Of a stretch of 64,000 nt of DNA, positions 7,302 through 57,298 are shown piece after piece. The stretch spans positions 2,683,001 to 2,747,000 of the forward strand of contig NC_016745.1 of NCBI RefSeq assembly GCF_000243075.1. The letters are read 5' to 3'. The position numbers were made by a program, and so were the translations under genes. The stretch's first letter is position 1, and every line of letters begins with the position of its first letter. The DNA is from Oceanimonas sp. GK1 (GTDB taxonomy: Bacteria > Pseudomonadota > Gammaproteobacteria > Enterobacterales > Aeromonadaceae). The notes beneath the pieces are model-generated. The model worked only from the letters and a program-made list of their open reading frames with translations. It did no database searches and had not been told where the DNA came from.

Positions 7302-7305
7302 TTCG

Positions 7306-7333
7306 GGGACTGGGGACTGCTATCCCCAGTCCC
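7306..7333. terminator. Heptamer-derived hairpin between purU and the DUF1244 gene
   Basis: GGGACTGGGGA and TCCCCAGTCCC form a perfect 11-bp stem with loop CTGCTA, starting four bases after the purU stop and ending nine bases before the end of the convergent gene. There is no T-run, so termination is uncertain. The arms are made of the same heptamer (ACTGGGG) as the array near 17.7 kb. Confidence 0.6.
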
Positions 7334-7341
7334 GTACGGCG

Positions 7342-7638
7342 TCAGTCGTGCTTGTGGCTGCTCTCAAAGGCGGCCTTTTGCTCGGCCGTCGCCTCTTTCT
7401 GGTATTTCTCCTTCCACTCGCCGTAGGGCATGCCGTATACCCGCTCCCGGGCCTCGTCGTAGTTCATCTCCAGGCCCCGCTCCTCGGCGGCGGCCAGGTA
7501 CCACTTGCTCAGGCAGTTGCGGCAAAAACCGGCCAGGTTCATCAGGTCGATATTCTGCACGTCCTTGCGTTGATCCAGATGCGCCAGCAGGGCGCGAAAG
7601 GCGGCGGCGTCCAGCTCGGTTTGGGTTTGCTTGTCCAT
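7342..7638 (-). CDS. DUF1244-family protein
   Basis: A 98-residue protein of unknown function belonging to the DUF1244 family. Recognisable family segments are FRALLAHLDQRKDVQNIDLM, NLAGFCRNCLSKWY with two cysteines three residues apart, and RVYGMPYGEWKEKYQ. ATG 7638 is chosen because GGAGAAG lies five to ten bases upstream; longer in-frame starts have no ribosome binding site. It is transcribed toward purU and is divergent from yfbR, whose start is 68 bases away. The Cys-x-x-Cys pair might bind a metal; nothing more can be said. Confidence 0.85.
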   Translation of the reverse strand: MDKQTQTELDAAAFRALLAHLDQRKDVQNIDLMNLAGFCRNCLSKWYLAAAEERGLEMNYDEARERVYGMPYGEWKEKYQKEATAEQKAAFESSHKHD

Positions 7639-7706
7639 CGTCTTCTCCATTGGCAGTTGAGATGCCATTATAACGGCAAGCCCCGCAAACCTCATGAGGC
7701 AACATC

Positions 7707-8300
7707 ATGAATCGCAGCCACTTTTATGCCCAAATGGCACGCATGAAGCTGATCCAGCGCTGGCCGCTGATGCGCAACACGGATCCGGAAAACGTGGCAG
7801 AGCACAGCCTGCAGGTGGCCATGGTGGCCCACGCCCTGGCGGTGATTAAAAATACCCTGTTCGGTGGCCGGCTTGATCCCGGCATGGCCGCCCTGCGCGC
7901 CCTCTATCACGACGCCAGCGAAGTGCTGACCGGAGACCTGCCCACCCCGGTCAAATACTTCAATCACGACATTGCCACCGCCTACAAGGCCATTGAGCAG
8001 AACGCCGAGCAAAGCCTGCTGGCCATGCTGCCCGCCGAGCTGCAGCCCGCCTTTGCCCCCTTGTTGTGCGGCCACCGGGACGATGACTACAGCCACCTGG
8101 TGAAGTCCGCCGACATGCTCTGCGCCTACCTCAAGTGCGAAGAGGAGCTGTCGGCAGGCAACCGGGAGTTCGCCAAGGCCCGCGAGCGGCTGACCGCCAT
8201 GCTGGACGCACGCATGAACGACGAAATTCAGTATTTTCTGGAGGTGTTTGTGCCCAGCTTTTCCCTGTCGCTGGATGAAATCTCCACCCCGGGGTTTTGA
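7707..8300 (+). CDS. yfbR: 5'-deoxynucleotidase, HD-domain (YfbR)
   Basis: YfbR removes the 5' phosphate from deoxyribonucleoside monophosphates and takes part in dCTP-to-thymidine salvage. The 197-residue protein is the usual length and shows the HD-domain metal ligands: [14 protein letters not shown] (His), [13 protein letters not shown] (His-Asp) and [15 protein letters not shown] (Asp). A substrate-selecting region [13 protein letters not shown] precedes the first ligand. It is a single gene. A 12-copy heptamer array begins at the base directly after its stop codon. Confidence 0.95.
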
Positions 8301-8384
8301 AGACGGGAGACGGGAGACGGGAGACGGGAGACGGGAGACGGGAGACGGGAGACGGGAGACGGGAGACGGGAGACGGGAGACGGG
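8301..8384 (+). repeat. Tandem array, 12 perfect copies of AGACGGG
   Basis: Twelve uninterrupted copies of the seven-base word AGACGGG run from the base after the yfbR stop codon. No spacers are present, so this is not a CRISPR. It belongs to the heptamer-periodic family found at several other gene ends in the window. Confidence 0.97.
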
Positions 8385-8431
8385 GACACTACAGGCCACA
8401 ATAACCTAAGCAAGCTCGTCTTCGTCCAATC

Positions 8432-8486
8432 TCACACGTCCACACGTCTTATTTTTACGTCTTACATCTTACGTCCAACGTCTCAC
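8432..8486 (-). repeat. Degenerate heptamer repeat after the DUF3833 gene
   Basis: Read on the minus strand from the DUF3833 stop codon, the sequence runs GACGTTG, GACGTAA, GATGTAA, GACGTAA, then decays into GACGTGTG words. The first 22 bases are almost identical to the sequence after the trpA stop codon at 57190. Confidence 0.75.
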
Positions 8487-9019
8487 GTGGATCCTTTTCG
8501 TTCAATCCACAGGGTGACTTCACCGACCTTGAAGCCCCATTTGGTCATGTCGGCACGGTTGATCAGCCGGTTTTCATCCAGCAGGTACATCCAGTCGTTA
8601 AAGTCGATGTGCCAGACCTTGCCGTCTACCGGCACCGCCAGGGTATAACGCCAGTTCAGGGCATAGCCTTCGGTTCTGCCCTCGGCGGGGGTAACCACAT
8701 CCGCGGCGGTACCGGTATAGCGGCCGTCGGCATGTTTTTCCAGCTGCCACACCCGGCGTTGCTGCTCACCGTCATCGTAAAAGAAGTCTTCCTCCAGCAC
8801 CCCCTGGTTGCCTTCCCAGTTGGCCACCATGTCGACCCGAAAGCGTCGCAGCACCTTGCCGGATCTGTCCTGCACCATGCCAAAGGCCACCAGCTCACCG
8901 GTAAAGAACTCATCCAGCGCCAATGCCGGGGTGGTGCCCTGGTAATCGGCAATCTGGCTGCTGCAGGATGTCAGCAGCGGGGTCAGCAACAACGTCAGCG
9001 CCACCAGCAGAATTTTCAT
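8483..9019 (-). CDS. DUF3833-family lipoprotein
   Basis: A 178-residue predicted lipoprotein (signal MKILLVALTLLLTPLLTSC, lipobox cysteine at 19) of the DUF3833 family. Family segments seen are ALALDEFFTGELVAFGMVQD, GKVLRRFRVDM, LEEDFFYDDGE and the aromatic-rich WHIDFNDWMYLLDENRLINR. It is the last gene of the eleven-gene photolyase operon, one base after the preceding stop codon, with AAAGGAGG within the end of that gene. DUF3833 genes are often found with CFA-like and DUF1365 genes, suggesting a role in lipid or envelope modification; the reaction is unknown. Confidence 0.87.
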   Translation of the reverse strand: MKILLVALTLLLTPLLTSCSSQIADYQGTTPALALDEFFTGELVAFGMVQDRSGKVLRRFRVDMVANWEGNQGVLEEDFFYDDGEQQRRVWQLEKHADGRYTGTAADVVTPAEGRTEGYALNWRYTLAVPVDGKVWHIDFNDWMYLLDENRLINRADMTKWGFKVGEVTLWIERKGST

Positions 9020-9020
9020 G

Positions 9021-9503
9021 TCAGCCTCCTTTCAGCTGTCGGGTCAGGTTCGGATCCCGGCTGTCAGACGACAGCCAGATAGCCAGAAAGGCGGGGGCAA
9101 AGGCCGGGTCTTCAATGCGGCCCAGCAGCCGCCAGTTGAAGTAGAACGAGCTGGCGCCGGTTTCATCCACCCTGAGCACCAGCTCGTCATCGGTGCGTAC
9201 CGAGGGCCACAGCCGTGCCAGCTGTTGCGGCCATTCCGGCTTCCAGTTCACCCCCAGGCGCTGCCATTCCTCCACGGTGGCGGTCAGCAGATCTTCCTTG
9301 TCGATATTGCGCTGGTAACGCAGTGACAAGGCCTGAGGATACCGCCCCGGCTGGTAGCGGCCATCCTCGCTGTAAAACCGGGCCTGGTACAGATCCCAGA
9401 ACAGCCAGCTCATTCTGCCCTGGCCCACCAGGGTCAGATCCGCCACCGGACTGGCCCATGCCGATGACACCAGCAGCAACAACATTACGCAGAGCTTTTT
9501 CAT
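9021..9503 (-). CDS. Chalcone-isomerase-like protein
   Basis: A 160-residue exported protein (signal peptide MKKLCVMLLLLVSSAWA) of the chalcone isomerase-like fold. Segments such as LVGQGRMSWLFWDLYQARFY, LSLRYQRNIDKEDLLTATVEEW and FYFNWRLLGRIEDPAFAPAF match the bacterial family in which a plant-type flavonoid reaction is not expected; a fatty-acid-binding role is more likely by analogy with plant FAP proteins. It overlaps the DUF2878 gene upstream (ATGA) and is followed after one base by DUF3833, so it belongs to the photolyase operon. Confidence 0.82.
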   Translation of the reverse strand: MKKLCVMLLLLVSSAWASPVADLTLVGQGRMSWLFWDLYQARFYSEDGRYQPGRYPQALSLRYQRNIDKEDLLTATVEEWQRLGVNWKPEWPQQLARLWPSVRTDDELVLRVDETGASSFYFNWRLLGRIEDPAFAPAFLAIWLSSDSRDPNLTRQLKGG

Positions 9504-9988
9504 GGTTCAGTCTTCCTCAGTCGTTGATCGAGCTTGACCAGCAGCGGCAACAAGCCCGACCAGATCAGCGCCAGCAGCAGTGCCGAGGGCCAGAGCCCCA
9601 ATGGCAGCGCGACCGCCTCCAGCTTCCAGCCGGCCAGGTATGAAGATGCTCCCGCTCCCGCCCCGGTCAGCGCCAGCCAGGGCCAGGAGAACCGGCGCAA
9701 CCACACCAGGCTGTGCCCCAGGGTCAGCACAAAACCCACCCACAGCAGGGCCAGCCACAGCGGCCAGTGGCTGAAGGCAAACACCCCGCCCGCCGTCAGC
9801 AGGGCATCCACCCCCAACCCCAGCACCGCCAGCCACAACACCCGCACATCCGCCCGGCGGCTGGGGGTAAAGGCAAAATGCACCCCCAGCAAGGCGGCGG
9901 TCAGCCAGGCCCAGGGGTTCTGCCCGGCCACCGCCAGCAACCAGAAGCCCTCAAAGGCTACAAGCTGGGTCCATTGCCACTTCGACAT
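9500..9988 (-). CDS. DUF2878-family membrane protein
   Basis: A 162-residue integral membrane protein with about five hydrophobic helices and tryptophan-rich caps (for example LWLAVLGLGVDALLTAGGVF, HWPLWLALLWVGFVLTLGHS, LALIWSGLLPLLVKL). It matches DUF2878, of unknown function. It overlaps the end of the CFA-like methyltransferase gene by 31 bases and the chalcone-isomerase-like gene by four bases, so all three are probably translationally coupled. The combination suggests an inner-membrane partner of the lipid-modifying enzyme; that is inference. Confidence 0.83.
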   Translation of the reverse strand: MSKWQWTQLVAFEGFWLLAVAGQNPWAWLTAALLGVHFAFTPSRRADVRVLWLAVLGLGVDALLTAGGVFAFSHWPLWLALLWVGFVLTLGHSLVWLRRFSWPWLALTGAGAGASSYLAGWKLEAVALPLGLWPSALLLALIWSGLLPLLVKLDQRLRKTEP

Positions 9989-11211
9989 GCTCTCGCTCCG
10001 GGTTTGGCCGCCTCAAAATGCGCCAGGCCGATGGTGCCTTCCAGAAAACCGCCTTCACAATAGGCAAAGTAGAAGGCCCACAACCGCTGAAAGTCGGCGT
10101 TGTAACCGAGCCGGGCGAGCTCGGGGCCGGCCCGGCGAAACCGCTCGGCCCAGATGCGCAGGGTTTCGGCATAGTGCCAGCCGTAATCGTGCAACCGCAC
10201 CAGGGTCATGTCGGTCTGCTCCCGCAGATGCCGCGACATTTCACTCACCGACGGCAGGCAGCCGCCAGGAAAAATGTAACGCTGAATAAAGTCCACACTT
10301 TTGCGGTATTGCTGATAACGCTGATCGGCAATGGTAATGGCCTGGATCAACAGCCGGCCATCGGGCTTGAGCAGCCGGTTGAGGGTGCGAAAGTATTCCG
10401 GCAGGTATTCATGTCCCACGGCTTCAATCATTTCCACCGACACCAGCTTGTCATAATGACCGGTCAGCTCCCGGTAATCCTTCAGCAGCAGGGTCACCCT
10501 GTCCTCAAGCCCTTCTTGTTTGACCCGGGCCTGAGCATACTCAAACTGCTCCTTTGACAGCGTGGTGGTGGTCACCCGGCAGCCGTAATGGCGCGCCGCG
10601 TAGCAGGCCAGTCCGCCCCAGCCGGTGCCGATCTCCAGCAGGTGATCCTCCGGCTTCAGCTCAAGCCGGGCGCAGATAAGCCGAAGTTTGTGCTCCTGGG
10701 CCAGCTCCAGCGTGGAGCTGTTTCTCGGGAATACCGCCGAGGAGTACTGCATGTGCGGGTCGAGAAACCGCTCATACATGTCGTTGCCCAGATCGTAATG
10801 GGCGGCGATATTCGCCCGGCTGCCATCCCTGGAATTGCGGTTGCGCCGGTGGGCCAGCCGGTGCCAGGGCCAGGTCAGCCAGCCCAGGCGCCGTTCCAGC
10901 CGGTCCAGCACCGCCAGGTTGCGGGCAAACAGCCGTACCAGACTGGTGAGATCCGGGCTGTGCCAGCCGCCTTCCACCCAGGACTCGGCAGCGCCGATGC
11001 TGCCGCCGGTCATCAGCCGGCGGTAAAAGCGCGGGTCCATCACCCGCACCTCGGCCTGCAACGCAGCCTCGGGCTCACCGAAGAAAAACCGGTCGTCGCC
11101 GTCCTGCACCGTCAGCCCGGCGTCTTTCAGGCCGGACAACAAGGAAAATGCCAGACTGCGGGCCCAGCGATCCAGACGGCGGGGGGCGGCCAGTGTCAGG
11201 GTTGTTTCCAT
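9958..11211 (-). CDS. CFA-synthase-family SAM-dependent methyltransferase
   Basis: A 417-residue enzyme of the cyclopropane-fatty-acyl-phospholipid synthase family. It has an N-terminal lipid-binding region (GGSIGAAESWVEGGWHSPDL), then IAAHYDLGNDMYERFLD, the SAM-binding LLEIGTGWGGLACYAARHYG, SVEMIEAVGHEYLPEYF and IFPGGCLPSVSEM. In Rhodobacter a homologue in a similar singlet-oxygen regulon methylates unsaturated fatty acids on the way to furan fatty acids; whether this one makes cyclopropane, methyl-branched or furan lipids cannot be read from sequence. ATG 11211 follows AAGGA. It sits ten bases after DUF1365, within the photolyase operon. Confidence 0.9.
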   Translation of the reverse strand: METTLTLAAPRRLDRWARSLAFSLLSGLKDAGLTVQDGDDRFFFGEPEAALQAEVRVMDPRFYRRLMTGGSIGAAESWVEGGWHSPDLTSLVRLFARNLAVLDRLERRLGWLTWPWHRLAHRRNRNSRDGSRANIAAHYDLGNDMYERFLDPHMQYSSAVFPRNSSTLELAQEHKLRLICARLELKPEDHLLEIGTGWGGLACYAARHYGCRVTTTTLSKEQFEYAQARVKQEGLEDRVTLLLKDYRELTGHYDKLVSVEMIEAVGHEYLPEYFRTLNRLLKPDGRLLIQAITIADQRYQQYRKSVDFIQRYIFPGGCLPSVSEMSRHLREQTDMTLVRLHDYGWHYAETLRIWAERFRRAGPELARLGYNADFQRLWAFYFAYCEGGFLEGTIGLAHFEAAKPGARACRSGNGPSL

Positions 11212-11221
11212 CTTGGCGTCC

Positions 11222-17562: not shown

Positions 17563-17616
17563 AGAAAAAATTCTTCAACGGCAAGAGGTGAGACGCGTGT
17601 CGTTGGGGCTGGTAAA

Positions 17617-17761
17617 TTGGAAAGTGGGAATTGGGGAATTGGAGGCTGGGACTGGGGACTGGGGACTGGGGACTGGGGACTGGGGACTGGGGACTGGGGA
17701 CTGGGGACTGGGGACTGGGGACTGGGGACTGGGGACTGGGGACTGGGGACTGGGGACTGGG
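17617..17761. repeat. Tandem array of ACTGGGG, about 15 perfect copies plus decayed units
   Basis: From 17651 to 17761 the sequence is fifteen perfect ACTGGGG units and a partial one; the preceding 30 bases are decayed heptamers (GGGAATT, GGGGAATT, GGAGGCT). The array lies between the DUF1315 gene and the operator of the photolyase operon. The complementary word CCCCAGT resembles heptamer repeats known from filamentous cyanobacteria (STRR family, from memory). Confidence 0.97.
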
Positions 17762-17794
17762 AACCTTGCCCGGGATAACCCCGGGCCACCAGGG

Positions 17795-29173: not shown

Positions 29174-29249
29174 TGGTGGGTCGTGCAGGATTCGAACCTG
29201 CGACCAATTGATTAAAAGTCAACTGCTCTACCAACTGAGCTAACGACCC
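29174..29249 (-). tRNA. tRNA-Lys(TTT), copy nearest nadA
   Basis: 76 bases including encoded CCA; starts GGGTCGTTAGCTCAG, anticodon loop CTTTTAA, TTCGAATC in the T arm. Its first 15 bases are repeated just upstream in a 47-base tandem duplication. Confidence 0.97.
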
Positions 29250-29328
29250 GTATAAACGGAAGCTTATTCATTCGGAATAAGCTGAGCTAACGACCCGTAT
29301 AAACGGAAGCTTATTCATTCGGAATAAG
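29235..29328 (-). repeat. 47-bp perfect tandem duplication with a tRNA-Lys 5' fragment
   Basis: Bases 29235-29281 and 29282-29328 are identical. Each copy holds the first 15 bases of tRNA-Lys and a 32-base spacer with the hairpin CTTATTC-CGAAT-GAATAAG. Only the copy next to 29234 is continued by a full tRNA; the other is a 15-base remnant. Confidence 0.95.
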
Positions 29329-29404
29329 TGGTGGACGCTACTGGGATCGAACCAGTGACCCCCTCCTTGTAAGGGAGGTGCTCTCCCGGCTGAGCTAAGC
29401 GTCC
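29329..29404 (-). tRNA. tRNA-Val(TAC), type A
   Basis: 76 bases with encoded CCA; acceptor stem GGACGCT, anticodon loop CTTACAA. Uridine-34 is a likely substrate of the CmoA/CmoB pathway encoded at 42.8-44.5 kb. Confidence 0.97.
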
Positions 29405-29411
29405 GGGAATC

Positions 29412-29487
29412 TGGTGGGTCGTGCAGGATTCGAACCTGCGACCAATTGATTAAAAGTCAACTGCTCTACCAACTGAGCTAACGACCC
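29412..29487 (-). tRNA. tRNA-Lys(TTT)
   Basis: 76 bases with encoded CCA, identical to the other four tRNA-Lys genes of the array; seven bases separate it from the next tRNA-Val. Confidence 0.97.
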
Positions 29488-29512
29488 GAATTGTGTCACT
29501 TTCCTCGGAAAG

Positions 29513-29588
29513 TGGTGGGTGATACTGGGCTCGAACCAGTGACCCCCTCCTTGTAAGGGAGGTGCTCTCCCAGCTGAGCTAATCACCC
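29513..29588 (-). tRNA. tRNA-Val(TAC), type B
   Basis: 76 bases with encoded CCA; acceptor stem GGGTGAT pairs with ATCACCC, differing from type A, while the anticodon arm is the same. Confidence 0.97.
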
Positions 29589-29617
29589 TGGGTGCACTTT
29601 TAAGAAAGTACTAAAAC

Positions 29618-29693
29618 TGGTGGACGCTACTGGGATCGAACCAGTGACCCCCTCCTTGTAAGGGAGGTGCTCTCCCGGCTGAGCTAAGCGTCC
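29618..29693 (-). tRNA. tRNA-Val(TAC), type A
   Basis: 76 bases with encoded CCA, acceptor stem GGACGCT, anticodon TAC; same sequence as the copy at 29329. Confidence 0.97.
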
Positions 29694-29699
29694 GGGAAC

Positions 29700-29775
29700 T
29701 GGTGGGTCGTGCAGGATTCGAACCTGCGACCAATTGATTAAAAGTCAACTGCTCTACCAACTGAGCTAACGACCC
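29700..29775 (-). tRNA. tRNA-Lys(TTT)
   Basis: 76 bases with encoded CCA, identical to the other copies; followed in the transcript by tRNA-Val type A after six bases. Confidence 0.97.
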
Positions 29776-29800
29776 GAATTGTGTCACTTTCCTCGGAAAG

Positions 29801-29876
29801 TGGTGGGTGATACTGGGCTCGAACCAGTGACCCCCTCCTTGTAAGGGAGGTGCTCTCCCAGCTGAGCTAATCACCC
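29801..29876 (-). tRNA. tRNA-Val(TAC), type B
   Basis: 76 bases with encoded CCA, acceptor stem GGGTGAT; part of the second Lys-ValA-ValB unit. Confidence 0.97.
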
Positions 29877-29906
29877 TGGGTGCACTTTTAGCAAAAGTAC
29901 CAAAAC

Positions 29907-29982
29907 TGGTGGACGCTACTGGGATCGAACCAGTGACCCCCTCCTTGTAAGGGAGGTGCTCTCCCGGCTGAGCTAAGCGTCC
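29907..29982 (-). tRNA. tRNA-Val(TAC), type A
   Basis: 76 bases with encoded CCA, acceptor stem GGACGCT, anticodon TAC. Confidence 0.97.
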
Positions 29983-29989
29983 GGGAATC

Positions 29990-30065
29990 TGGTGGGTCGT
30001 GCAGGATTCGAACCTGCGACCAATTGATTAAAAGTCAACTGCTCTACCAACTGAGCTAACGACCC
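29990..30065 (-). tRNA. tRNA-Lys(TTT)
   Basis: 76 bases with encoded CCA, identical to the other copies. Confidence 0.97.
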
Positions 30066-30090
30066 GAATTGTGTCACTTTCCTCGGAAAG

Positions 30091-30166
30091 TGGTGGGTGA
30101 TACTGGGCTCGAACCAGTGACCCCCTCCTTGTAAGGGAGGTGCTCTCCCAGCTGAGCTAATCACCC
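30091..30166 (-). tRNA. tRNA-Val(TAC), type B
   Basis: 76 bases with encoded CCA, acceptor stem GGGTGAT; first type B copy in transcription order. Confidence 0.97.
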
Positions 30167-30195
30167 TGGGTGCACTTTTAAGAAAGTACCAAAAC

Positions 30196-30271
30196 TGGTG
30201 GACGCTACTGGGATCGAACCAGTGACCCCCTCCTTGTAAGGGAGGTGCTCTCCCGGCTGAGCTAAGCGTCC
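30196..30271 (-). tRNA. tRNA-Val(TAC), type A
   Basis: 76 bases with encoded CCA, acceptor stem GGACGCT; first type A copy in transcription order. Confidence 0.97.
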
Positions 30272-30278
30272 GGGAATC

Positions 30279-30354
30279 TGGTGGGTCGTGCAGGATTCGA
30301 ACCTGCGACCAATTGATTAAAAGTCAACTGCTCTACCAACTGAGCTAACGACCC
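30279..30354 (-). tRNA. tRNA-Lys(TTT), promoter-proximal copy
   Basis: 76 bases with encoded CCA; first gene of the array, about 40 bases after a stable-RNA-type promoter. Confidence 0.97.
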
Positions 30355-31837: not shown

Positions 31838-33139
31838 TTAGTTTAGAAACGGTGACCACGCCGGTGAGCGGACATCGCCGCTGCGCGCCGGCAGCCTGGC
31901 CTTGAAACGACCATCCATCGATACCAGGGACAGCACCTGCCGGCCCTGATAGGTGGTACTGTAGATGATCATGGTGCCGTTGGGCGCCGGGCTCGGAGAC
32001 TCATCCAGCTGTGTTTCGGTCAACACCTGCAGATAGCCTCCGTCCAGCTCCTGTCGGGCAATCCGGTATTGCCCCTGGGAGCGGCTGACCAGCACCATGT
32101 TCTGACCGTCTGCCGTGACCCGGGGGCCCAGATTCATGTCTCCCTCAAAGGTCACGCGGCGGGCATTGCCGCTGCCCGGCTCGGTGCGGTAGACCTGTGG
32201 CCGGCCGCCCCGTTCGGAGACAAAATAAATACTTTTTCCGTCCGCCGACCAGGTCGGCTCGGTGTCGATTGTGCGGTTATTGGTCACCCGGGTCAACTGG
32301 CCACTGGCCAGAGTGAGTACATAAACCTCGGGCTGACCATCCCGGGACAGCACCAGCGCCAGCCGGCTGCCGTCGGGGGACCAGGCGGGGGCGCCATTGA
32401 TGCCAGGCTGGGAGCTCACCACCCGGCGTTGCTGGCTGTAAATATCCTGCACCACAATCTCGGCCTTCTTGTTTTCAAAGGACACATAAGCCAGTTTACG
32501 GCCGTCCGGCGACCAGGCCGGCGACATCAGCGGCTCCCGGGAGCGCAGCAGCACCTGCTCGTTGAAGCCGTCGTAATCGGCGATCATCAGCTGGTACGGA
32601 TACTGGGCACCGTGCTGCACGTTAACGTAGGCGATGCGGGTAAGAAACGCGCCCTTGATGCCGGTCAGCTTCTCAAACACGATGTCGGCAATACGGTGAG
32701 CGTACTGGCGCAACTGGGCGGCGGGCACGGTGGCACTGCGGCTTTCCAGCAGCTGGGCGCCGTTACCGCCGAGCACGTCGGCCAGCTCAAAGCTGATGCG
32801 ATACTGGTTGTTGCCCGCCGGCGCAATGCTGCCCACCACCACGGCTTCCGCCTGGCGCGAACGCCACAGCATGGGGTCCAGCTGATCGGCCCGGGACACC
32901 CGCTGGGGCAGCGCATTGCGGTCCAGCGGCCGGAACATGCCGCTGTTGCGCAGATCGTTGGCAATCACCTCGGACAGCTCCTGGGGGGCGGCGCCACCGC
33001 CGGTCCATTCAAAGGGTACCACCGCCACCGGCCGGGCACTGTCTATGCCGCCGGTGATCACTATGTCCAGCGCCGCCTGGGCTCGTCCTGCCAGCATCAG
33101 CAGCGGCAGCCATAACCACAACCATCGTTTTGTCATCAT
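31838..33139 (-). CDS. tolB: Tol-Pal system beta-propeller protein TolB
   Basis: A 433-residue periplasmic protein that binds Pal and TolA. A signal peptide (ending GRAQA) is followed by an N-terminal alpha/beta domain ([20 protein letters not shown]) and a six-bladed propeller with repeated [53 protein letters not shown] motifs. The start ATG 33139 overlaps the tolA stop (TGATG) and follows GAGG; a TTG three bases upstream is less likely. It is within the ybgC-tolQRAB-pal-cpoB operon. Confidence 0.95.
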
Positions 33140-34329
33140 CAAAGCCTCGGTATCAGGGTCAAATTCAGATTTTGCAGCTGTTTGTTCACGTCCGGATCCT
33201 TGGGCATGGGCAGGGTTCCGGTTTTGCGAATGGCCAACTCCGCCGAGCGGCAGACCTCTGCATCGCCCTGCCCCTGCCCTATGGTCAGAATAAGGCCATC
33301 GGGCGCCACCCGCACGTTAATGCGACACTGCTTGCCCACCATGGTCGGCCCCACCAGCCAGTTGCGCTGAATGGCGGCGATGATCATGCCGGTGTAGCGA
33401 TCCACTTCCGCGGCCGAGGCAGCGGACGACGCGCCTCCCGCCGAGCCGCCGCCCATCAGGGCTTCCAGATCCTTCATCGCCTGCTCGGCTTCCGCTTTTT
33501 TCTTGGCTTCCGCCGCCTTGCGGGCCGCTTCGGCTTCCGCCTGTTTCTTGGCCTCTGCCGCCTTGCGCTCGGCCTCGGCCTTCTTCTTCGCTTCCTCGGC
33601 CTTGCGCGCCGCCTCGGCTTCCGCCTGCTTCTTGGCTTCCGCCACCTTGCGTGCCGCCTCGGCCTTCTTCTTCGCTTCCTCGGCCTTGCGGGCCGCCTCG
33701 GCTTCCGCCTGTTTCTTCGCTTCTGCCGCCTTGCGTGCCGCCTCGGCCTCCGCCTGTTTCTTGGCTTCCGCCGCCTTGCGCGCCGCCTCGGCTTCCGCCT
33801 GCTTCTTGGCTTCTGCCGCCTTGCGCACTGCCTCGGCTTCCGCCTGTTTCTTCGCTTCCGCCGCCTTCTGCGCCGCTTCGGCTTCCGCCTGCTTTCTGGC
33901 CTCTTCCGCACGGCGGGCGGCTTCGGCCTGACGTTGCTGCTCCAGCACCTGTTGACGCTCCGCTTCGGCCTTGGCCTGCTGCTCGGCCACGGCCTTTTGC
34001 TGCTCGGCCTGGCGCGCCGCTTCGGCGGTGGCGGCTTGCTCCGCCGCCTGTCGTTCGGCTTCCTCGGCGGCCTTTTGCGCGGCCTCGGCTTTCGCCTGGG
34101 CCGCGGCCTGCTCGGCGTCGCGGTTTGCCTGCATTTCCGCCAGCCGCTCGGCCTGGGCCGCCACCATGCCGTCGTCGATCATGGTGGCTTCAATAATGGA
34201 CGCCGCCTGGGTCGGCCGCTTGGGCGTGTTGAAGTTGACCCCCACCAGCAGTATCACGCCGATCAGTACATGCAGCCCCAGCGAAATCACCAGCGCCTTG
34301 CGAATGCCCCCGCTCTGGTTATCAAACAC
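33139..34329 (-). CDS. tolA: TolA, inner-membrane-anchored periplasm-spanning protein
   Basis: A 396-residue protein. One N-terminal helix ([20 protein letters not shown]) anchors it; residues about 55-300 form a long Ala-Glu-Lys-rich helix with many near-copies of a 13-residue unit ([13 protein letters not shown]); the C-terminal domain III has [17 protein letters not shown] and [12 protein letters not shown]. It transmits energy from TolQR to Pal. The repeats give the plus strand a long false ORF. The stop overlaps tolB, and tolR ends four bases before it. Confidence 0.93.
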
Positions 34330-38453: not shown

Positions 38454-38555
38454 GTCACCCCCGCGAAGGCGGGGGTCCAGAGAAAAGGTGTACGGCTCTG
38501 CAGACATGGCATCGCCTGCAGAGCCGCACTGGATCTCCGCCTACGCGGAGGTGAC
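38454..38555. repeat. 102-bp palindromic MITE-like element
   Basis: Outer arms of 27 bases (38454-38480 and 38529-38555) are inverted with four mismatches and begin GTCACC; each arm also folds on itself (CCCCCGC-GAA-GCGGGGG type). Inside, CGGCTCTGCAG (38493) and CTGCAGAGCCG (38516) are a perfect inner inverted repeat. It fills nearly the whole yebC-ruvC gap. Confidence 0.88.
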
Positions 38556-41631: not shown

Positions 41632-41712
41632 TTAAAGGCGGGAATAGGGAATAGGGACTGGTAAAGGCAAAAACCGCATTCTTCTGGTGCCGATTCCCTA
41701 TTCCCCAGTCCC
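41632..41712. repeat. Inverted heptamer repeat between aspS and yecE
   Basis: GGGAATA, GGGAATA, GGGACTG lie on the plus strand from about 41640; about 30 bases on, TCCCTATTCCCCAGTCCC is the matching arm. Seven-base period and word content match the heptamer family. Confidence 0.75.
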
Positions 41713-41737
41713 TGCTCCCTTGGTTGAAAGGAGAAAT

Positions 41738-42587: not shown

Positions 42588-42660
42588 CGTAAGGGGTGAG
42601 GTGTGAGGGGAAAAACACTCAAATCCATCCTTCTCCTCCCCCCTCACCCCTCACTTCCCT
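42588..42660. repeat. Inverted heptamer repeat between yecE and cmoA
   Basis: Starting about ten bases after the yecE stop: GTAAGGGGTGAGGTGTGAGG, then 30 bases, then the opposite strand words CCCCTCACCCCTCAC. The heptamer GGGGTGA is shared with sites at 47776 and 57209. Confidence 0.75.
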
Positions 42661-45290: not shown

Positions 45291-46805
45291 ATGTACTCAC
45301 GCAAACCCTTTTATCTGATCGTGGCAGCCCTGTTCCTGGTGGGGCTGGCACTTATGCTACACCGTCACTTTGTCTATGAAGTGCCCTGGCTGCCCGGTGA
45401 AAAACGCCAGATCTGGTCGGTGGAGGCCAAGGTGGAGTTCGAAGCCAATGGCCGGCCGGTAAAGGCCTCCCTGGCGGTGCCCGGCAGCCAGCCCGGCTTT
45501 ACCCTGATGAACGAGTCTGCCGCTTCTCCCGGTTATGGCCTGTCGTTCGTGCAAACCGAAGGCGGCGCCCGCGCCGAGTGGTCCATTCGCTCCGCCACCG
45601 GCCATCAGGAGCTGTACTACAAGGTCGACATGATGCTCGACCCCTTTGCCAAGGGCCCCATCGGCAATACCCCGCCCCAGATCACCCCGGTGGAAGTGGC
45701 CGAGCCCTATGCCACCGCCATGGATCAGGTGCTGAGCCTGGCCCGGGAGCGCTCTTCCGACAACATTACCTTTACCCGGGAGCTGTTGCGGGAACTGGGC
45801 GGCGGCGGCCAGAACGCCGAGCTGCTGGCCCAGCACAAATCGGCCGGTCCCTTGTTGCTCGACATGCTGCACCGGGCCGGCGTGCAGGCCCGGCTGCTGA
45901 AGGGCCTGCAGCTGGAAGACGGCCGCCGGCGCCAGCCGCTGGTGGACGTGGTGCAGGTCTTTGACGGCGAGCGCTATGACATCTTCAACCCGGCCACCGG
46001 AGCCCAGGGCCGCCAGGAAAACCTGCTGCTGTGGGAGTACCACTCGGCGCCGGTGCTGGATCTGGTGGGTGGCAGCAACTCCCGCGTTACCTTCACCATG
46101 CTGCAGCAGGAGCAACCGGTGAACGTGGCCCTGGCCAAGAAGTTTGACCAGCCCGACTGGATCAACGTGTCGCTGTACAACCTGCCGCTGGAAGAGCAGG
46201 CCCTGTTCAAGGGCATTCTGCTGATCCCCATCGGCGTGCTGGCAGTGGTGTTCCTGCGCATTATCGTGGGGGTGAAAACCTCGGGTACCTTTATGCCGGT
46301 GCTGATCGCCATGGCCTTTATTCAGACCAGCCTGCTCACCGGCCTGGTGGGCTTTCTACTGATCGTGGGCACCGGCCTGGTGCTGCGCTCCTACCTCTCC
46401 CACCTCAACCTGCTATTGGTGGCGCGGATCTCGGCGGTGATCATCATGGTCATCGGCATGATCGGCTTTTTCAGCATCGTCGCCTATCAGCTGGGCCTGA
46501 CCGAGGGCATGAAGATCACCTTCTTCCCCATGATCATTCTGGCCTGGACCATAGAGCGAATGTCCATTCTGTGGGAAGAGGAAGGCCCCAAAGAAGTCGT
46601 CAAGCAGGGCGGCGGCTCCCTGGTGGTGGCGGTGATGGCCTTCCTGGCCATGAACAACGAGCTGATTCGTCACCTCACCTTCAACTTCCTCGGTCTGCAG
46701 CTGATGGTCATGGCCGCGGTACTGCTGCTGGGCAACTACACCGGCTATCGCCTGACCGAGCTCAAGCGCTTCAAGCCCCTGGTGGACGAGCTGAAACATG
46801 ATTAA
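45291..46805 (+). CDS. Inactive transglutaminase fused to seven membrane helices
   Basis: A 504-residue membrane protein. One helix at about 6-26 leads to a periplasmic domain (about 30-300) like an inactive transglutaminase (LLDMLHRAGVQARLLKGLQL, YDIFNPATGA), and about seven helices follow (for example GVLAVVFLRIIVGVKTSGTF, LTGLVGFLLIVGTGLVLRSY, ISAVIIMVIGMIGFFSIVAY). This domain pair is known from cassettes with a retropepsin and an ATP-grasp ligase, as found on both sides here. It overlaps the ligase gene by eight bases. Function is not established. Confidence 0.87.
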   Translation: MYSRKPFYLIVAALFLVGLALMLHRHFVYEVPWLPGEKRQIWSVEAKVEFEANGRPVKASLAVPGSQPGFTLMNESAASPGYGLSFVQTEGGARAEWSIRSATGHQELYYKVDMMLDPFAKGPIGNTPPQITPVEVAEPYATAMDQVLSLARERSSDNITFTRELLRELGGGGQNAELLAQHKSAGPLLLDMLHRAGVQARLLKGLQLEDGRRRQPLVDVVQVFDGERYDIFNPATGAQGRQENLLLWEYHSAPVLDLVGGSNSRVTFTMLQQEQPVNVALAKKFDQPDWINVSLYNLPLEEQALFKGILLIPIGVLAVVFLRIIVGVKTSGTFMPVLIAMAFIQTSLLTGLVGFLLIVGTGLVLRSYLSHLNLLLVARISAVIIMVIGMIGFFSIVAYQLGLTEGMKITFFPMIILAWTIERMSILWEEEGPKEVVKQGGGSLVVAVMAFLAMNNELIRHLTFNFLGLQLMVMAAVLLLGNYTGYRLTELKRFKPLVDELKHD

Positions 46806-47769
46806 GCAGCTGCTCGCCAAATACGCCACGCCCTTTGAGCTGGGCCGCCACGGTATTATGGGCATGAACCGCCGTAATATTTCCTATATCAGCCGCTACA
46901 ACCCGCGGCGGCTGTATCCGCTGGTGGACAACAAGCTCAAGACCAAGCAGATTGCGCTGGATGCCGGTGTCACCGTGCCCGAGCTGGTGGGGGTGATCGA
47001 ATACCAGCACCAGGTGTCCCGCCTGTGGGACATGGTCAAGGACTGGCCGGGCTTTTGCATCAAGCCCGCCAAGGGCTCGGGGGGCAAGGGCATTACGGTG
47101 ATCGTGGATCACGACCGCCAGCGCTTTACCAAGCCCAGCGGCAAGGCCGAGACCATTGAGGATCTGGAGCGCCATGTGTCCAACATTCTGGCCGGGCTGT
47201 ACTCCCTCGGCGGCAAGCCGGACGTGGCGCTGATCGAGGCCCTTATCAACTTCGACGATGTGTTTGACGGCTTTTCCTACGAAGGCGTCCCCGACACCCG
47301 GGTGATCGTGTTCAAGGGCTTTCCCATCATGGCCATGATGCGGCTGTCCACCCAGGCGTCGGACGGCAAGGCCAACCTGCACCAGGGCGCCGTGGGCGTG
47401 GGGCTCGACATCAACACCGGCCGGGCCATTCGGGCGGTGCAGTTCAATGCCCCGGTGCGCTACCACCCGGATACCGGGCGGGATCTGTTCGAACTGAAGG
47501 TGCCCTACTGGGAGCTGCTGCTGAACCTGTCCTCTTCCTGCTACGAGATGTCGGGACTGGGCTACATCGGCACCGACATGGTGCTCGACAAGCAAAAGGG
47601 CCCCATGCTGCTGGAGCTGAACGCCCGCCCGGGGCTGGCGATACAAACCGCCAACGCCGCCGGCCTGGTGCCGCGCCTGCGCAAGATTGAAAAACTGGGC
47701 CGCAAGATCACCATGACCCCCGACGAACGGGTGGCCTTCTCCCGCCGGGAGTTCGCCAGCGAGTTGTGA
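46798..47769 (+). CDS. ATP-grasp alpha-L-glutamate-ligase-like protein (RimK-related)
   Basis: A 323-residue ATP-grasp enzyme. Nucleotide-binding features are PGFCIKPAKGSGGKGITVIV and DVALIEALINFDDVFDGFSY, with metal-binding LLELNARPGLAIQTANAAGL at the end. By family it ligates an amino acid or amine to a carboxyl group, as RimK does, in the cytoplasm. It is the third gene of the retropepsin/transglutaminase-7TM/ligase cassette. Whether it modifies a protein, peptide or small molecule is unknown. A bidirectional terminator follows. Confidence 0.87.
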   Translation: MIKQLLAKYATPFELGRHGIMGMNRRNISYISRYNPRRLYPLVDNKLKTKQIALDAGVTVPELVGVIEYQHQVSRLWDMVKDWPGFCIKPAKGSGGKGITVIVDHDRQRFTKPSGKAETIEDLERHVSNILAGLYSLGGKPDVALIEALINFDDVFDGFSYEGVPDTRVIVFKGFPIMAMMRLSTQASDGKANLHQGAVGVGLDINTGRAIRAVQFNAPVRYHPDTGRDLFELKVPYWELLLNLSSSCYEMSGLGYIGTDMVLDKQKGPMLLELNARPGLAIQTANAAGLVPRLRKIEKLGRKITMTPDERVAFSRREFASEL

Positions 47770-47773: not shown

Positions 47774-47806
47774 TGGTAAGGGGTGAGGTGTTTAGAGTGA
47801 GGAGAT
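47774..47806 (+). repeat. Heptamer repeat after the ATP-grasp gene
   Basis: About nine bases after the stop codon: AAGGGGTGAGGTGTTTAGAG, then TGAGGAGA; the opposite arm CCTCACCCCTCACAGG is at about 47857-47872, before the rluB end. Shares TAAGGGGTGAG with sites after yecE and trpA. Confidence 0.7.
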
Positions 47807-47841
47807 AAAAACGGCGCCGGGCTTGAATCCGGCGCCGTTTT
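47807..47841. terminator. Bidirectional terminator between the ATP-grasp gene and rluB
   Basis: AAAAACGGCGCCGG and CCGGCGCCGTTTT pair around GCTTGAAT, between two convergent genes. Confidence 0.9.
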
Positions 47842-47875
47842 ACTTTGCGCGTTTATACCTCACCCCTCACAGGTG

Positions 47876-49441: not shown

Positions 49442-49461
49442 GATTCCTCCCGGAATGATTT

Positions 49462-50494: not shown

Positions 50495-50517
50495 ATTATC
50501 CAGCAAAAGGTGATGCG

Positions 50518-50652: not shown

Positions 50653-50670
50653 CTCATAAGGAATACCCCC

Positions 50671-52811: not shown

Positions 52812-53815
52812 ATCAGGCCATGGAACAACTTTACCGGGGCGAAAACATCAGCCGTGAAGCCTCTCATGCCCTGTTCGAGCAACTGCTGCGCGGCGACATG
52901 GATCCCATTGTGCTCTCCTCCCTGCTCACCGCCCTGAAGATAAAAGGCGAAAGCCCGGACGAGATCGCCGGGGCCGCCAGCGCCCTGCTGGCCGCCGCCA
53001 AACCCTTTCCCCGCCCCGATTACGCCTTTTGCGACATCGTTGGTACCGGCGGCGATGGCATGAACACCATCAATGTGTCCACCACCTCGGCGCTGGTGGC
53101 CGCCGCCTGCGGCATTCCCGTGGCCAAGCACGGCAACCGGGGGGTGTCGTCCAAGTCGGGTTCGTCAGACCTGCTGGAGCAACTGGGCATTCGCCTGGAT
53201 CTCAGCCCGGAAGCGGCCCGCCGCTGCCTGGACGAAGCCAAGGCCTGTTTTCTGTTCGCCCCGCTCTACCACGGTGGCATTCGCCACGCCATGCCGGTGC
53301 GCCAGGCCCTGAAAACCCGCACCATCTTCAATGTGCTGGGCCCGCTCATTAACCCGGCACGCCCGAGCTTTATGGTGCTGGGGGTGTACAGCCCGGCACT
53401 GGTCCGCCCCATTGCCGACACCCTGGTGACCATGGGCCTGGAGCGGGGCATGGTGGTGCACGGCAGCGGCCTGGATGAAATTGCCATTCACGGCCCCACC
53501 CACATTGCCGAGATCAACGGCAACACCGTCACCGAATATCACATCACCCCCGAGGAGCTGGGGCTGGAACGGCACGATATCAGCACCATTGAGGGCGGCG
53601 AGCCGGCAGAGAACCGCAAAATTACCGAAGCCCTGCTGGCCGGTGAAGGTACCCTGGCCCAGCAGAGCGTGATTGCCATGAACGTGGCGCCGCTGCTGGT
53701 GATGAGCGGTCAGGTGGAAAATCTCAAGCAGGGCGTGGAGCGGGCACTGTCCGTGTTAAGATCCGGCCGTGCCCTGGATGTGGCCAAACAACTGGCGGAG
53801 TTGAGTCAATGCTGA
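52808..53815 (+). CDS. trpD: Anthranilate phosphoribosyltransferase
   Basis: TrpD joins anthranilate to PRPP. The 335-residue protein has the PRPP-binding [60 protein letters not shown] and [13 protein letters not shown]. It overlaps trpG (ATGA) and trpCF by seven bases. Confidence 0.97.
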
Positions 53816-55197
53816 ATACGGTGCTCGGCAAAATTGTTGCCGACAAGAAAATCTGGGTGGAAGCCCGCAAACAAAGCCAGCCGCTGGCCAGCTTTGAAGC
53901 CGCGCTCACCCCAAGCGATCGTCCCTTTGCCGAGGCCCTGGCCGCCGGCAAGCCGGCCTTTATTCTGGAATGCAAAAAGGCCTCGCCCTCCAAGGGACTG
54001 ATAAGGGAAGTGTTTGATCTGGATGCCATTGCCGGCGTCTATGGCCGTTACGCCTCGGCCATTTCGGTGCTGACCGAAGAAAAGTACTTTCAGGGCCGCA
54101 TGGAGTTTGTGACCCGAGTGCGCGAACAAGTGACCCAGCCGGTGATCTGCAAGGACTTCATTGTCGATCCTTACCAAATCAAGCTGGCCCGCCACTACCA
54201 GGCCGATGCCATTCTGCTGATGCTGTCGGTGCTGGACGACGAGCAGTATGCCGAACTGGCCAAGGTGGCCGAATCCCTCAATATGGGCGTGCTCACCGAG
54301 GTGATCGACGAAGAGGAAGTGGCCCGGGCGCTGAAACTGGGTGCCAGGGTGATTGGCATCAACAACCGGGACCTGCGGGACCTCAGCATCGATCTCGACC
54401 GCACCAAACGGCTGGCGGCACTCATTCCCGAAGACCGCATCGTGATCTCCGAGTCCGGCATTTACCATCACGGCCAGACCAAGGCGCTCTCGGCCCATGC
54501 CGACGGCTTTCTGGTGGGCAGCTCGCTGATGGCCGAAGACCACCTTGAGCTTGCGGTGCGCCGGCTGATCCTCGGCGACAACAAGGTCTGTGGCCTCACT
54601 CGGGCCGAAGACGCCGCCGCCGCGTTTGAAGCCGGTGCCGTTTACGGGGGCCTCATCTTCGTGGAGAAAAGCCCCCGCTGCGTGAGCCTGGACCAGGCCC
54701 GCCGCGTGATGGCCGGCGCCCCGCTGCACTACGTGGGCGTATTTCAGAATCAGCCAGCAGACGAGATAGTGGCCACCGCACAAGAGCTGAACCTGGCGGC
54801 GGTGCAACTGCACGGTGACGAAGACGATGCCACCATCGAGCAACTCAAAGCCCGGCTGCCCGGCGTGGCCATCTGGAAAGCGGTGGCGGTAAGCGATGCG
54901 CTGCCCGCCCTGCCCCAGCACGCCGATCGGCTGCTGTTTGATACCAAGGCTGGCGGCCAGAGCGGCGGCACCGGCCAGGCCTTTGACTGGAGCCTGCTCG
55001 CAAACATCGATAAGGCCAGTGCCATGCTGGCCGGCGGGCTCACTTCCGACAACGCCGCCACCGCCGCCGCCGTTGGCTGCCGCGGCCTGGACTTTAACTC
55101 CGGCGTGGAAAGCGCTCCCGGCCAAAAAGATGCCGGCAAACTCAAGGCGGCCTTTGCCACCCTCAGACACTACGGACGCAGGACAAACACACAATGA
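53809..55197 (+). CDS. trpCF: Bifunctional indole-3-glycerol-phosphate synthase / phosphoribosylanthranilate isomerase
   Basis: A 462-residue two-domain enzyme doing two steps of tryptophan synthesis. Residues about 1-255 are the synthase ([67 protein letters not shown]). Residues about 256-462 are the isomerase ([54 protein letters not shown]). The fusion is typical of gammaproteobacteria. It overlaps trpD and trpB. Confidence 0.97.
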
Positions 55198-56387
55198 GCT
55201 TACTGAATCCCTTTTTCGGCGACTTTGGCGGCATGTACGTGCCGCAGATCCTGATGCCGGCCCTGCTGCAACTGGAGCAGGCCTTTGTGGACGCCCAGCA
55301 GGATCCGGAATTTGACCGCGAGTTTCGCGAGCTGCTGACGGAATACGCCGGCCGCCCCACCCCGCTGACCCGGGTGCGCAACCTGGCCGCCAACACCAAA
55401 ACCCGCATTTACCTGAAGCGGGAAGATCTGCTGCACGGCGGTGCTCACAAGACCAACCAGGTGCTGGGCCAGGCGCTGCTTGCCAAGCGCATGGGCAAAA
55501 AACGCATTATCGCCGAAACCGGCGCCGGCCAGCACGGCGTGGCCACCGCCCTGGCCTGCGCCCTGATGGACATGGAGTGCATCGTGTACATGGGCGCCAA
55601 GGACTGCGAGCGGCAAAAACCCAATGTATTCCGTATGGAGCTGATGGGCGCCAAGGTGATACCGGTGCATTCCGGCGCAGCCACCCTCAAGGACGCCTGC
55701 AACGAGGCCATGCGCGACTGGGCAGCCAACTACGAGACCACCCACTACATGCTGGGGACCGCCGCTGGCCCGCACCCCTTCCCCACCATAGTGCGCGAAT
55801 TCCAGCGCATGATCGGCGAGGAAGCCAAGGTGCAGATCATGGAGCACGAAGCGCGGCTGCCCGATGCGGTGATTGCCTGTGTGGGCGGCGGCTCCAACGC
55901 CATTGGCCTGTTCGCCGACTTTATTGAGGAAGACAGCGTCAAGCTCATCGGCGTGGAGCCGGCGGGCAAGGGCATTGACACCGGCGAGCACGGCGCCACC
56001 CTGGGTGAAGGCACCAAGGGCGTATTCTTTGGCATGCTGTCGCTGATGATGCACGATGAAGACGGCCAGGTGGAAGAATCCTACTCGGTCTCCGCCGGCC
56101 TCGACTTTCCGTCCGTGGGCCCCCAGCACGCCTACCTGGCCACCACCGGCCGGGCCCAGTATGTGTCGGTCACCGACGACGAAGCCCTCAACGCCTTCCA
56201 GGCCCTGGCCCGTAACGAAGGCATTATTCCGGCGCTGGAATCCTCCCACGCCCTGGCCTATGCCCTGAAAATGGCCGAAGCCGATCCGGAAAAAGAGCAG
56301 GTACTGGTGGTGAACCTGTCGGGTCGTGGCGACAAGGACATCTTTACCGTGGCCGAAATCCTGGAGCACAAAGGAGCCCTGAAATGA
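55194..56387 (+). CDS. trpB: Tryptophan synthase beta subunit
   Basis: TrpB condenses indole and serine with PLP. The 397-residue protein has the PLP lysine K86 in [39 protein letters not shown], the phosphate loop [15 protein letters not shown] and [18 protein letters not shown]. It overlaps trpCF (ATGA) and trpA (ATGA). Confidence 0.98.
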
Positions 56388-57190
56388 GCCGTTACCAGCG
56401 TTTGTTTGACCGTTTGAAAACCGCCGATGAAGGCGCCTTTGTCCCCTTCGTGACCCTGGGCGACCCCACCCCCGAACACTCGCTGAAGGTGATTGACGCC
56501 CTGGTGGCCGGCGGTGCCGACGCCCTGGAGCTGGGCATTCCCTTCTCCGATCCGGTGGCCGATGGTCCCACCATTCAGGCCGCCACCCTGCGCGCCCGAA
56601 AGGCCGGCACCAACTCGCAAATCTGCTTCGACATGCTGACTCAGGTACGGGAAAAATACCCCGAGCTGCCCATTGGCCTGCTGGTGTACGCCAACCTGGT
56701 GTATGCGCCGGGAATGGACAGCTTCTATGGCCGTGCCGCCAAGGCCGGTGTGGACTCGGTGCTGGTGGCCGACGTGCCGCTGGAAATGGCCGGACCCTTC
56801 AAGGCCGCCGCCGACCGGGCCGGCATTGAGAGCATTTACATCGCCCCGCCCAACGGCGACGAGGCCACCCTGAAAGCGGTGGCACAAACCGGCTCCGGCT
56901 ACACCTACCTGCTGAGCCGGGCCGGCGTGACCGGCACCGAAACCAAGGCAGGCGCCCCGGTCGACACCCTGCTGGCTACCCTGGCCAAATACGATGCGCC
57001 ACCGTCGCTGCTCGGCTTTGGTATCTCCAGCCCCGAGCAGGTGCGCGACGCCATTGCCGCCGGTGCCGCCGGCGCCATCTCCGGATCCGCCGTGGTCAAG
57101 ATCATCGAGCAGCACCTGGACCAGCCCCAGGCCATGCTGGATGCCCTCACCGCCTTTGTCAAAGAAATGAAGGCCGCGACGCGGAAGTAA
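56384..57190 (+). CDS. trpA: Tryptophan synthase alpha subunit
   Basis: TrpA cleaves indole-3-glycerol phosphate and passes indole to TrpB. The 268-residue protein keeps catalytic E49 and D60 in [38 protein letters not shown], and [23 protein letters not shown] binds phosphate. It is the last trp gene; a degenerate heptamer repeat begins at the base after its stop codon and a terminator follows. Confidence 0.97.
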
Positions 57191-57219
57191 GACGTTGGAC
57201 GTGAGATGTAAGGGGTGAG
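57191..57219 (+). repeat. Heptamer repeat after trpA
   Basis: GACGTTG, GACGTGA, GATGTAA, GGGGTGA in register, beginning at the base after the stop codon. The first three units nearly match those after the DUF3833 stop at 8483; the fourth matches the yecE and ATP-grasp sites. Confidence 0.8.
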
Positions 57220-57298
57220 CAAAATTTGCCCCGTATTTTCCTCCGTCATCCCGGCACAGGAACGTCATTCATCACGAAAATAAGGACAGGCGTCCGAC

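Follow-up and report, generated by a model that had tools for sequence, protein, structure and literature searches.

Tandem arrays of seven-base words that lie directly behind genes are described here for a 64-kb window of the Oceanimonas sp. GK1 genome (the whole stretch analysed, bases 2,683,001-2,747,000 of its contig in a genome of 3.53 Mb). The closest described systems are the GGGAATC and GGGGA(C/T)T heptameric repeats of Xanthomonas and Nostoc (Rehm et al. 2015, PMC4692102), which are dispersed, mostly intergenic and built from heterogeneous GGGANTN words. In the parts of that account drawn on here, the repeats lie on the sense strand no more than 50 bp from stop codons, and some precede genes, in which case they are on the opposite strand; they form inverted pairs of convergent orientation, are under-represented between divergent genes and have ordinary metabolic neighbours. 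Two close species vary extensively in repeat length and sequence, with the gene context kept for 83% of the repeats, and GGGAATC and GGGGAYT oligonucleotides form quadruplexes in vitro. In marine Beggiatoaceae, TAACTGA direct repeats constitute dispersed intergenic heptamer tandems (MacGregor 2015, PMC4679880). Heptanucleotides are, according to Mrazek et al. (2007), the commonest long simple sequence repeat class in most genomes, and Mrazek and colleagues proposed slippage tied to the polymerase contact length for 7-nt units (both as cited in PMC4679880 and PMC4692102); repeats of 6-11 bp in general are given as normally or weakly over-represented in the part of PMC4060949 consulted.

The Oceanimonas arrays are simple-sequence repeats of the Xanthomonas and cyanobacterial kind, to which they add the coexistence of several word families and the presence of differing words at one address. 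The initial annotation of the window had described a dispersed, stop-linked heptamer family, and this part of it stands; it needs correction as to whether the kind was known, the exclusion of terminators and the extent of the start at stop codons. It had set the pattern apart from the REP, CRISPR and terminator patterns known to it; repeats of this kind are on record from Xanthomonas and Nostoc (PMC4692102), as are other dispersed heptamers from Beggiatoaceae (PMC4679880), and the former paper, in the parts considered, covers nearly everything that the annotation contained.

Period seven, gene ends and word families

The period was evaluated in a sample of the own genome comprising the window and 40 stretches of 20 kb at even spacing, which together cover 864 kb and 777 genes called with a simple home-made finder. 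Self-matching at each lag was scored over 439 intergenic gaps of 20-400 bp, 57.4 kb in total, leaving out one gap containing N and 50 longer than 400 bp, and lags 14 and 21 were treated as harmonics of lag 7. Exact runs of at least 10 matches occur nine times at lag 7, once each at lags 10 and 13, and never at lags 3-6, 8, 9, 11 and 12. When mismatches are tolerated, 44 segments score at least 8 at lag 7, the other lags from 3 to 13 giving 3-11 each, and at a score of at least 12 the contrast is 17 against 0-1; relative to the mean of 7.6 for lags 4-6 and 8-13, the 44 segments correspond to a Poisson P of ~1e-19. A lag-7 excess in intergenic sequence had been named beforehand as the check on which the claim depended, and the excess is present in the 864-kb sample, so the claim is not refuted. 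The window itself is enriched, holding 14 of the 44 segments in 64 of the 864 kb.

The arrays are clearly associated with gene ends. All segments taken together number 18 in 8.5 kb of convergent gaps, 21 in 31.9 kb of tandem gaps and five in 17.0 kb of divergent gaps. Thirty-six of the 44 fall into five loose word families, which were defined post hoc, once the arrays had been inspected, and the remaining eight are about what chance would give. Of the family arrays, 21 have their start no more than 16 nt from a stop codon and their purine-rich strand in sense, where placing them in these gaps with random position and strand would give 7.0 (at most 13 over 2000 trials). Those in convergent gaps are mostly in sense to the nearer gene (16 of 18), and those in tandem gaps divide into seven sense arrays, 0-22 nt from the stop, and nine antisense ones, eight of which lie 30-192 nt away; the two in divergent gaps share a single gap. 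Where no array follows the gene, the 3' region is not enriched in purines (0.49-0.53 over the first 30 nt). Of 508 3' regions, 28 have a segment with a score of at least 9 that starts within 24 nt past the stop, a few of which resemble chance or belong to the array of the opposite gene, and eight of the 28 extend 1-16 nt into the gene. The possibility that the stop codon is kept in register, by words ending in TGA or TAA or by stops in all frames, was rejected, as the same stop recurs at +7 in 3 of the 508 regions, which is no excess. The rule that arrays begin at stop codons and read in the direction of the gene describes 21 of the 36 family arrays and not the others, and the wider claim of several words with one period, sometimes in inverted arms and tied to stops, is supported.

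The families comprise GTGAGG/GGNGTRA (15 arrays, three of which also carry ACGT words), GGGANT (13), ACGTRA (4), GAGACGR (2) and AGCTNNA (2). Blocks of similar sequence recur at separate loci: an exact 12-mer is common to 28 of 946 array pairs from different gaps, against a control mean of 0.05, and (GGGACTG)3 is found at 12 sites in the own genome. No homology was detected in the flanks of the 36 arrays, 60 nt on each side with partner arms masked. The heptanucleotide repeat of Calothrix PCC7601 is reportedly known as STRR1, with the word CCCCAGT, the complement of ACTGGGG.

All the sites named in the initial annotation are real and were located in the window (Table 1), and the formyltransferase (PurU-like), YfbR, DUF3833, RuvC, DUF72 and TrpA assignments are backed by Pfam; the closest named relative of the YfbR protein, at 93%, is that of Oceanimonas marisflavi. 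The blocks at 8483 and 57191, described as near-identical, are so over ~22 bases. The array pair downstream of the putative ATP-grasp gene at 46798-47769 was read by eye and scores below the lag-7 cut-off. Rfam 15, searched against the window at gathering score, gave 12 matches, to tRNA only.

Table 1. Heptamer arrays and other repeats in the 64-kb window
Feature	Position (strand)	Words or units	Setting
purU array	7305-7319 (+)	GGGGACTGGGGACTG	3 nt past stop; convergent gap of 40 bp
purU inverted arm	7324-7333	CCCCAGTCCC	
yfbR array	8301-8384 (+)	(AGACGGG)12	0 nt past stop
DUF3833 array	8482-8455 (-)	GACGTTG GACGTAA GATGTAA GACGTAA	0 nt past stop
Array near DUF1315 gene	17614-17764 (+)	GGGAATTG-type words, then (GGGACTG)16.3 at 17648-17761	Pyrimidine-rich in sense of DUF1315 gene, whose stop is ~30 nt off
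ruvC array	37913-37885 (-)	ATCA GGGATGA GGGATTG GGGACTC GGGA	1 nt past stop
Inverted pair	41640-41720	GGGAATAGGGAATAGGGA at 41640, AGGGAGCAGGGACTGGGGAATAGGGAATCGG at 41690	Divergent gap, no stop codon near
yecE (DUF72) hairpin	42589-42608 (+), inverted arm 42635-42654	GGGGTGA-type words	3' of stop
Pair read by eye	47776-47870, inverted arm 47857-47870	GTAAGGGGTGAGG / GTAAGGGGTGAGGTGTTTAGAGTGAGGAG from 47776; arm ACCTCACCCCTCAC	Between convergent stops 47769 and 47876
trpA array	57191-57219 (+)	GACGTTG GACGTGA GATGTAA GGGGTGA G	Directly past stop, upstream of U-tract terminator
tRNA cluster	29174-30354 (-)	Largely 289-bp tandem unit, ~3.6 copies, 98% matches	Twelve tRNA genes: seven tRNA-Val(tac), five tRNA-Lys(ttt)
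Other tandem repeat	33484-33909	45- and 84-bp units	Within predicted coding region 33139-34329 (-), putatively TolA-like

Words and addresses in related genomes

At orthologous gene ends the place and the period persist and the words differ, as a comparison of such gaps, proposed in the initial annotation, has shown for purU, yfbR, DUF3833 and trpA. The purU gene is present in 17 loci, and its 3' gap carries GGGANTN types in the window, L010, L014 and L015, AGCTGTA types in L009, L012, L019 and L020, AGCCGTC in L023 and GGGGTGA types in L016; a score-8 segment is absent from the other seven loci, and a further genome of the same genus, G005, has GATGTAA/GACGTGA words there. For trpA, 5 of 23 genomes have a segment scoring at least 8 within 10 nt of the stop and two more have one farther off; the five close arrays are of four word kinds, namely GACGTTG types in two genomes, AAGCCGT, GCGCCGA/GCACCAA and TACGCCG. 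The yfbR and DUF3833 ends, with AGACGGG and GACGTTG in the window, carry GGGGTGA types in G005 and other relatives. Some addresses keep their words: GGGANTN words follow ruvC in both the own genome and G005, and the inverted pair at 41640 has a similar counterpart in G005. The yecE hairpin has similar counterparts in G002 and G003 and is absent in G005, G013 and G007. Among 63 orthologous 3' ends of the own genome and G005, a segment is present in both at six, in the own genome only at nine and in G005 only at none, counts that are rough because two of the six shared cases are weak (one lies far from the stop in both genomes, and one is the arm of the opposite gene in the own genome) and because trpA is scored as own-only despite alike words in G005.

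The constancy of the period, also claimed initially, holds across different words but is not absolute. In G005 the orthologue of the array at 17648 (L164) has a hexamer, (CAGCCC)8, in place of the heptamer (CAGTCCC)16, the unit length having changed by one base. Over the 201 gaps scanned in G005 the lag-7 signal is weak, with 14 segments against 1-11 elsewhere at score 8, and six against seven at lag 6 at score 10, the latter count being probably raised because the hexamer array adds to it. In the genus, the 17 named loci, with 82 gaps and 9.4 kb, represent one orthologous neighbourhood and not a random sample; they give 13 segments with a score of at least 10 at lag 7 and 0-3 at lags 4-6 and 8-13. 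No lag-7 segment of that score was found in 23 loci of Aeromonas (25.4 kb), and one in 40 loci of other Enterobacterales (18.4 kb). (GGGACTG)3 is present in 14 of the 61 genomes searched: in the own genome, in 13 of the 22 congeneric ones and in none of the 38 outside the genus.

Individual word types reach further into the class. Among 229 of its genomes, (AGCTNNA)3 occurs in eight, with 30, 14 and 10 matches in G182, G205 and G253 (overlapping registers included), (GGGGANT)3 in two, the own genome and one with GGGGAGT, and (GGGGTNA)3 in eight. The last is the reversed control pattern for (GGGGANT)3 and, being itself a GGGGTNA word, provides no valid control for it. One genome of the class sample, G144, has 32 overlapping (GGGGTNA)3 matches and may be a further genome in which GGGGTGA-type arrays abound. 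The stretches of G182 and G205 were largely chosen by pattern. In AGCTNNA-picked stretches of G182 the words drift within one array, from AGAAGCT through AGAAGTT to GGGAGCT, with the period unchanged, and seven random stretches of the same genome yield two strong lag-7 arrays near stops, which in so small a sample is no clear lag-7 excess because two strong lag-9 segments are found as well. Three listed arrays of G205 lie in divergent gaps near starts, and the G253 stretches have no array in their single usable gap.

Inverted arms and terminators

Arrays on opposite strands of one gap are arranged in an evidently uniform manner, the purine-rich arms facing each other with the purine arm first in all 20 pairs (eight of eight in the own genome, two in G005, four in the genus loci and six in G182 and G205). 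The arms within a gap also resemble each other, with a likeness of 0.86 as compared to 0.65 upon permutation (20 gaps; maximum of 300 permutations 0.74), and in the own genome alone of 0.88 as compared to 0.71 (0 of 1000 permutations). Folding gave z-scores below -2 for 19 of 19 pairs, one pair spanning over 260 nt being left out. Of 30 array gaps, 5 contain a U-tract terminator, where 11.4 would be expected from gaps matched in length and direction (P ~0.01); in an earlier tally the figures were 4 of 30 for array gaps and 203 of 591 for comparison (P = 0.017). Together with the placement of the arrays, these features suggest that the arms could take part in terminator-like hairpins, and the initial statement that the arrays are not a terminator pattern goes too far: the arms fold as hairpins, sit at terminator positions and have the ordinary purine 5' arm. 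They are not a CRISPR array, as the units run head to tail without unique spacers.

Several observations weigh against such a role. The folding z-scores are flattered, because purine and pyrimidine blocks were selected and shuffling mixes them, and the 20 pairs are not fully independent, including as they do orthologous loci and the pattern-picked G182 and G205 stretches. In array-free convergent gaps 25 of 38 hairpins have a purine 5' arm (at least 0.6) and none a pyrimidine one (at most 0.4), and in array-free tandem gaps the bias is weaker, the numbers being 26 and 9 of 50; since array-free hairpins have it too, the purine-first asymmetry appears to be a general mark of 3' hairpins in this genome. 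The U-tract comparison was made post hoc with a home-made detector, and some convergent gaps were counted twice. An intact U-tract terminator, identified by eye, lies downstream of all five trpA arrays within 10 nt of the stop, and the heptad arms at 47776-47870 flank an A-tract, a GC-stem and a T-tract that make up an ordinary bidirectional terminator; because ordinary terminators are present at both, termination at these sites does not require arrays. A greater overall stability of array 3' ends is not supported, the folding energy of the first 100 nt past the stop being -35.3 for 28 regions with arrays and -32.4 for 491 without (P = 0.11). Arrays without a good partner exist, such as the one at 8301, whose likeness to its opposite arm is 0.67, and the antisense arrays in tandem gaps, and array presence varies among close species.

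A palindrome of the type CACCCCCGCGAAGGCGGGGG also recurs 3' of unrelated genes, at 38455 in the window and in the trpA 3' gaps of L141, L142, L159 and L161, and is apparently a separate dispersed repeat that co-occupies 3' gaps with heptad arrays.

Origin of the arrays and relation to known repeats

The account that best fits these data, and to which we would give about an even chance, is that slippage-driven heptamer repeats settle in 3' gaps and join terminator-like hairpins. Polymerase slippage in seven-base steps would create the arrays and re-word them; the arrays would be retained in 3' gaps both through the tolerance of insertions at these positions and because a hairpin with a purine 5' and a pyrimidine 3' arm could serve as, extend or sometimes replace a terminator or an mRNA 3' guard. 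The heptamer arrays may help to mark gene ends. The occurrence of one word at many loci calls for more than slippage alone, and recombination between arrays is our guess at what is added.

A simpler account, in which the arrays are neutral slippage debris, expanding at a low rate everywhere and surviving in harmless 3' gaps without any function, is a serious though less probable possibility. It agrees with the scarcity of arrays in divergent gaps and their abundance in convergent ones, with their differing presence and length among close species and sporadic distribution by genus, and with the 7-nt slippage idea of Mrazek and colleagues (as cited in PMC4679880 and PMC4692102). It gains weight, and the terminator role loses it, because all five close trpA arrays have an intact terminator beside them. 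Tolerance alone, however, fails to predict the sense orientation of the purine strand near stops, the likeness of the arms and the arm order seen in 20 of 20 pairs.

Retention of G-tracts every seven bases as G-quadruplex elements at gene ends is unlikely. Quadruplexes of GGGAATC and GGGGAYT words do form in vitro (PMC4692102, in the part used here), GGGANT words make up 13 of the 36 family arrays and 22 have a weaker two-G motif. However, four G3 tracts, counted over the array and 8 nt on each side, are found in only eight of the 36, seven of them GGGANT arrays, so quadruplex formation fails as a general account, and GACGTNA, AGCTNNA, TACGCCG and GCGCCGA words keep the place and the period without G3 tracts. 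Only the subset of GGGANT arrays with quadruplex capacity is assigned to the class of heptameric G-rich repeats of Rehm et al.

Placement of small REP- or MITE-like mobile elements behind genes by a trans-acting transposase appears very improbable: the hairpin shape, the dispersed copies and the presence or absence of the DUF72 site across orthologues would suit it, as would the one Y1-transposase gene of the genome, but the 36 arrays have no common flanks, the word changes freely, the 3.3-kb locus around the Y1 gene holds no score-10 array and target-site duplications were not established at the one site inspected by eye. We give slightly less credence still to words being added at 3' ends in seven-base steps by a reverse transcriptase or other enzyme that copies a few templates as telomerase does. 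A limited vocabulary at unrelated loci without common flanks, and words that differ at one address with the period kept, would be in line with such synthesis, as would the single reverse-transcriptase gene of the genome. Stepwise drift and the change from a seven- to a six-base unit, on the other hand, require no template, and no score-10 array lies in the 3.6-kb locus of the reverse transcriptase, whose gene follows an integrase-like frame (likeness judged by eye). That gene is an open frame of 585 aa with a reverse-transcriptase domain at L138:1360-3117 (G000:C1 ~2,037,300), directly behind the integrase-like frame. With one gene each and no score-10 array in their loci, both the transposase and the reverse transcriptase were rejected as sources. 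Hardly credible, finally, is a role as sites at which single-strand-binding proteins that cover seven bases, such as cold-shock proteins, would attach, since B. subtilis CspB, which binds heptamer repeats with one protein per heptamer and weak sequence specificity and so would suit a fixed period with free words, prefers T-rich sequences as cited in the relevant part of PMC4679880, and the sense arms here are purine-rich.

A bolder reading, which we consider rather improbable, is that the gene ends of many bacteria are subject to a word-blind copying process with an inherent seven-base step, which rewrites the word of an array but leaves its place, period and direction unchanged, and that the recurring 3' hairpins reflect its products together with their selected use. 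If true, the heptamers known from Xanthomonas, cyanobacteria and Oceanimonas would form one phenomenon with the AGCTNNA and AGAANYC arrays found in other gamma-proteobacteria. The fullest of the published accounts considered (PMC4692102) focuses, in the parts used, on G-quadruplex words with one family per organism; here it is the word that changes under a constant period, place, strand and arm order, and most arrays are without a G3 quadruplex motif. This shifts the question from the role of a given word to why the step is seven and why it is found at 3' ends. No published account of several word families in one genome, or of family exchange at an orthologous address, was found in a search that left the subscription literature mostly uncovered.

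Compared with known systems, the arrays share the 3' position, the hairpin and the purine-rich 5' arm with intrinsic, including bidirectional, terminators, from which they differ in their heptad arms and in the presence of a U-tract terminator in only 5 of 30 array gaps. The work of Mrazek et al. (2007) is a general survey and, as cited, includes nothing on orthologous gaps. The TAACTGA repeats of Beggiatoaceae, unlike the arrays of Oceanimonas, have a single fixed word, related heptamers being rarely repeated, and are mostly directed at start codons (PMC4679880, in the part considered), and the tandem heptanucleotides of Calothrix PCC7601, as cited in PMC4692102, concern one cyanobacterial genome. 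The repeats of Rehm et al. are the nearest relatives: as far as the consulted parts of PMC4692102 extend, they have in common with those of Oceanimonas the 7-nt unit, the dispersed and mostly intergenic occurrence, the sense position at stop codons, the inverted pairs, the scarcity between divergent genes, the ordinary metabolic neighbours, the variation in length and sequence between close species and, for 13 of the 36 family arrays, the GGGANT words, and the GGGACTG word of Oceanimonas is the Nostoc word GGGGACT in a shifted register. Unlike them, Oceanimonas, another gamma-proteobacterial genus, has coexisting word families that mostly lack a G3 quadruplex motif, and words of different families occupy its orthologous 3' gaps.

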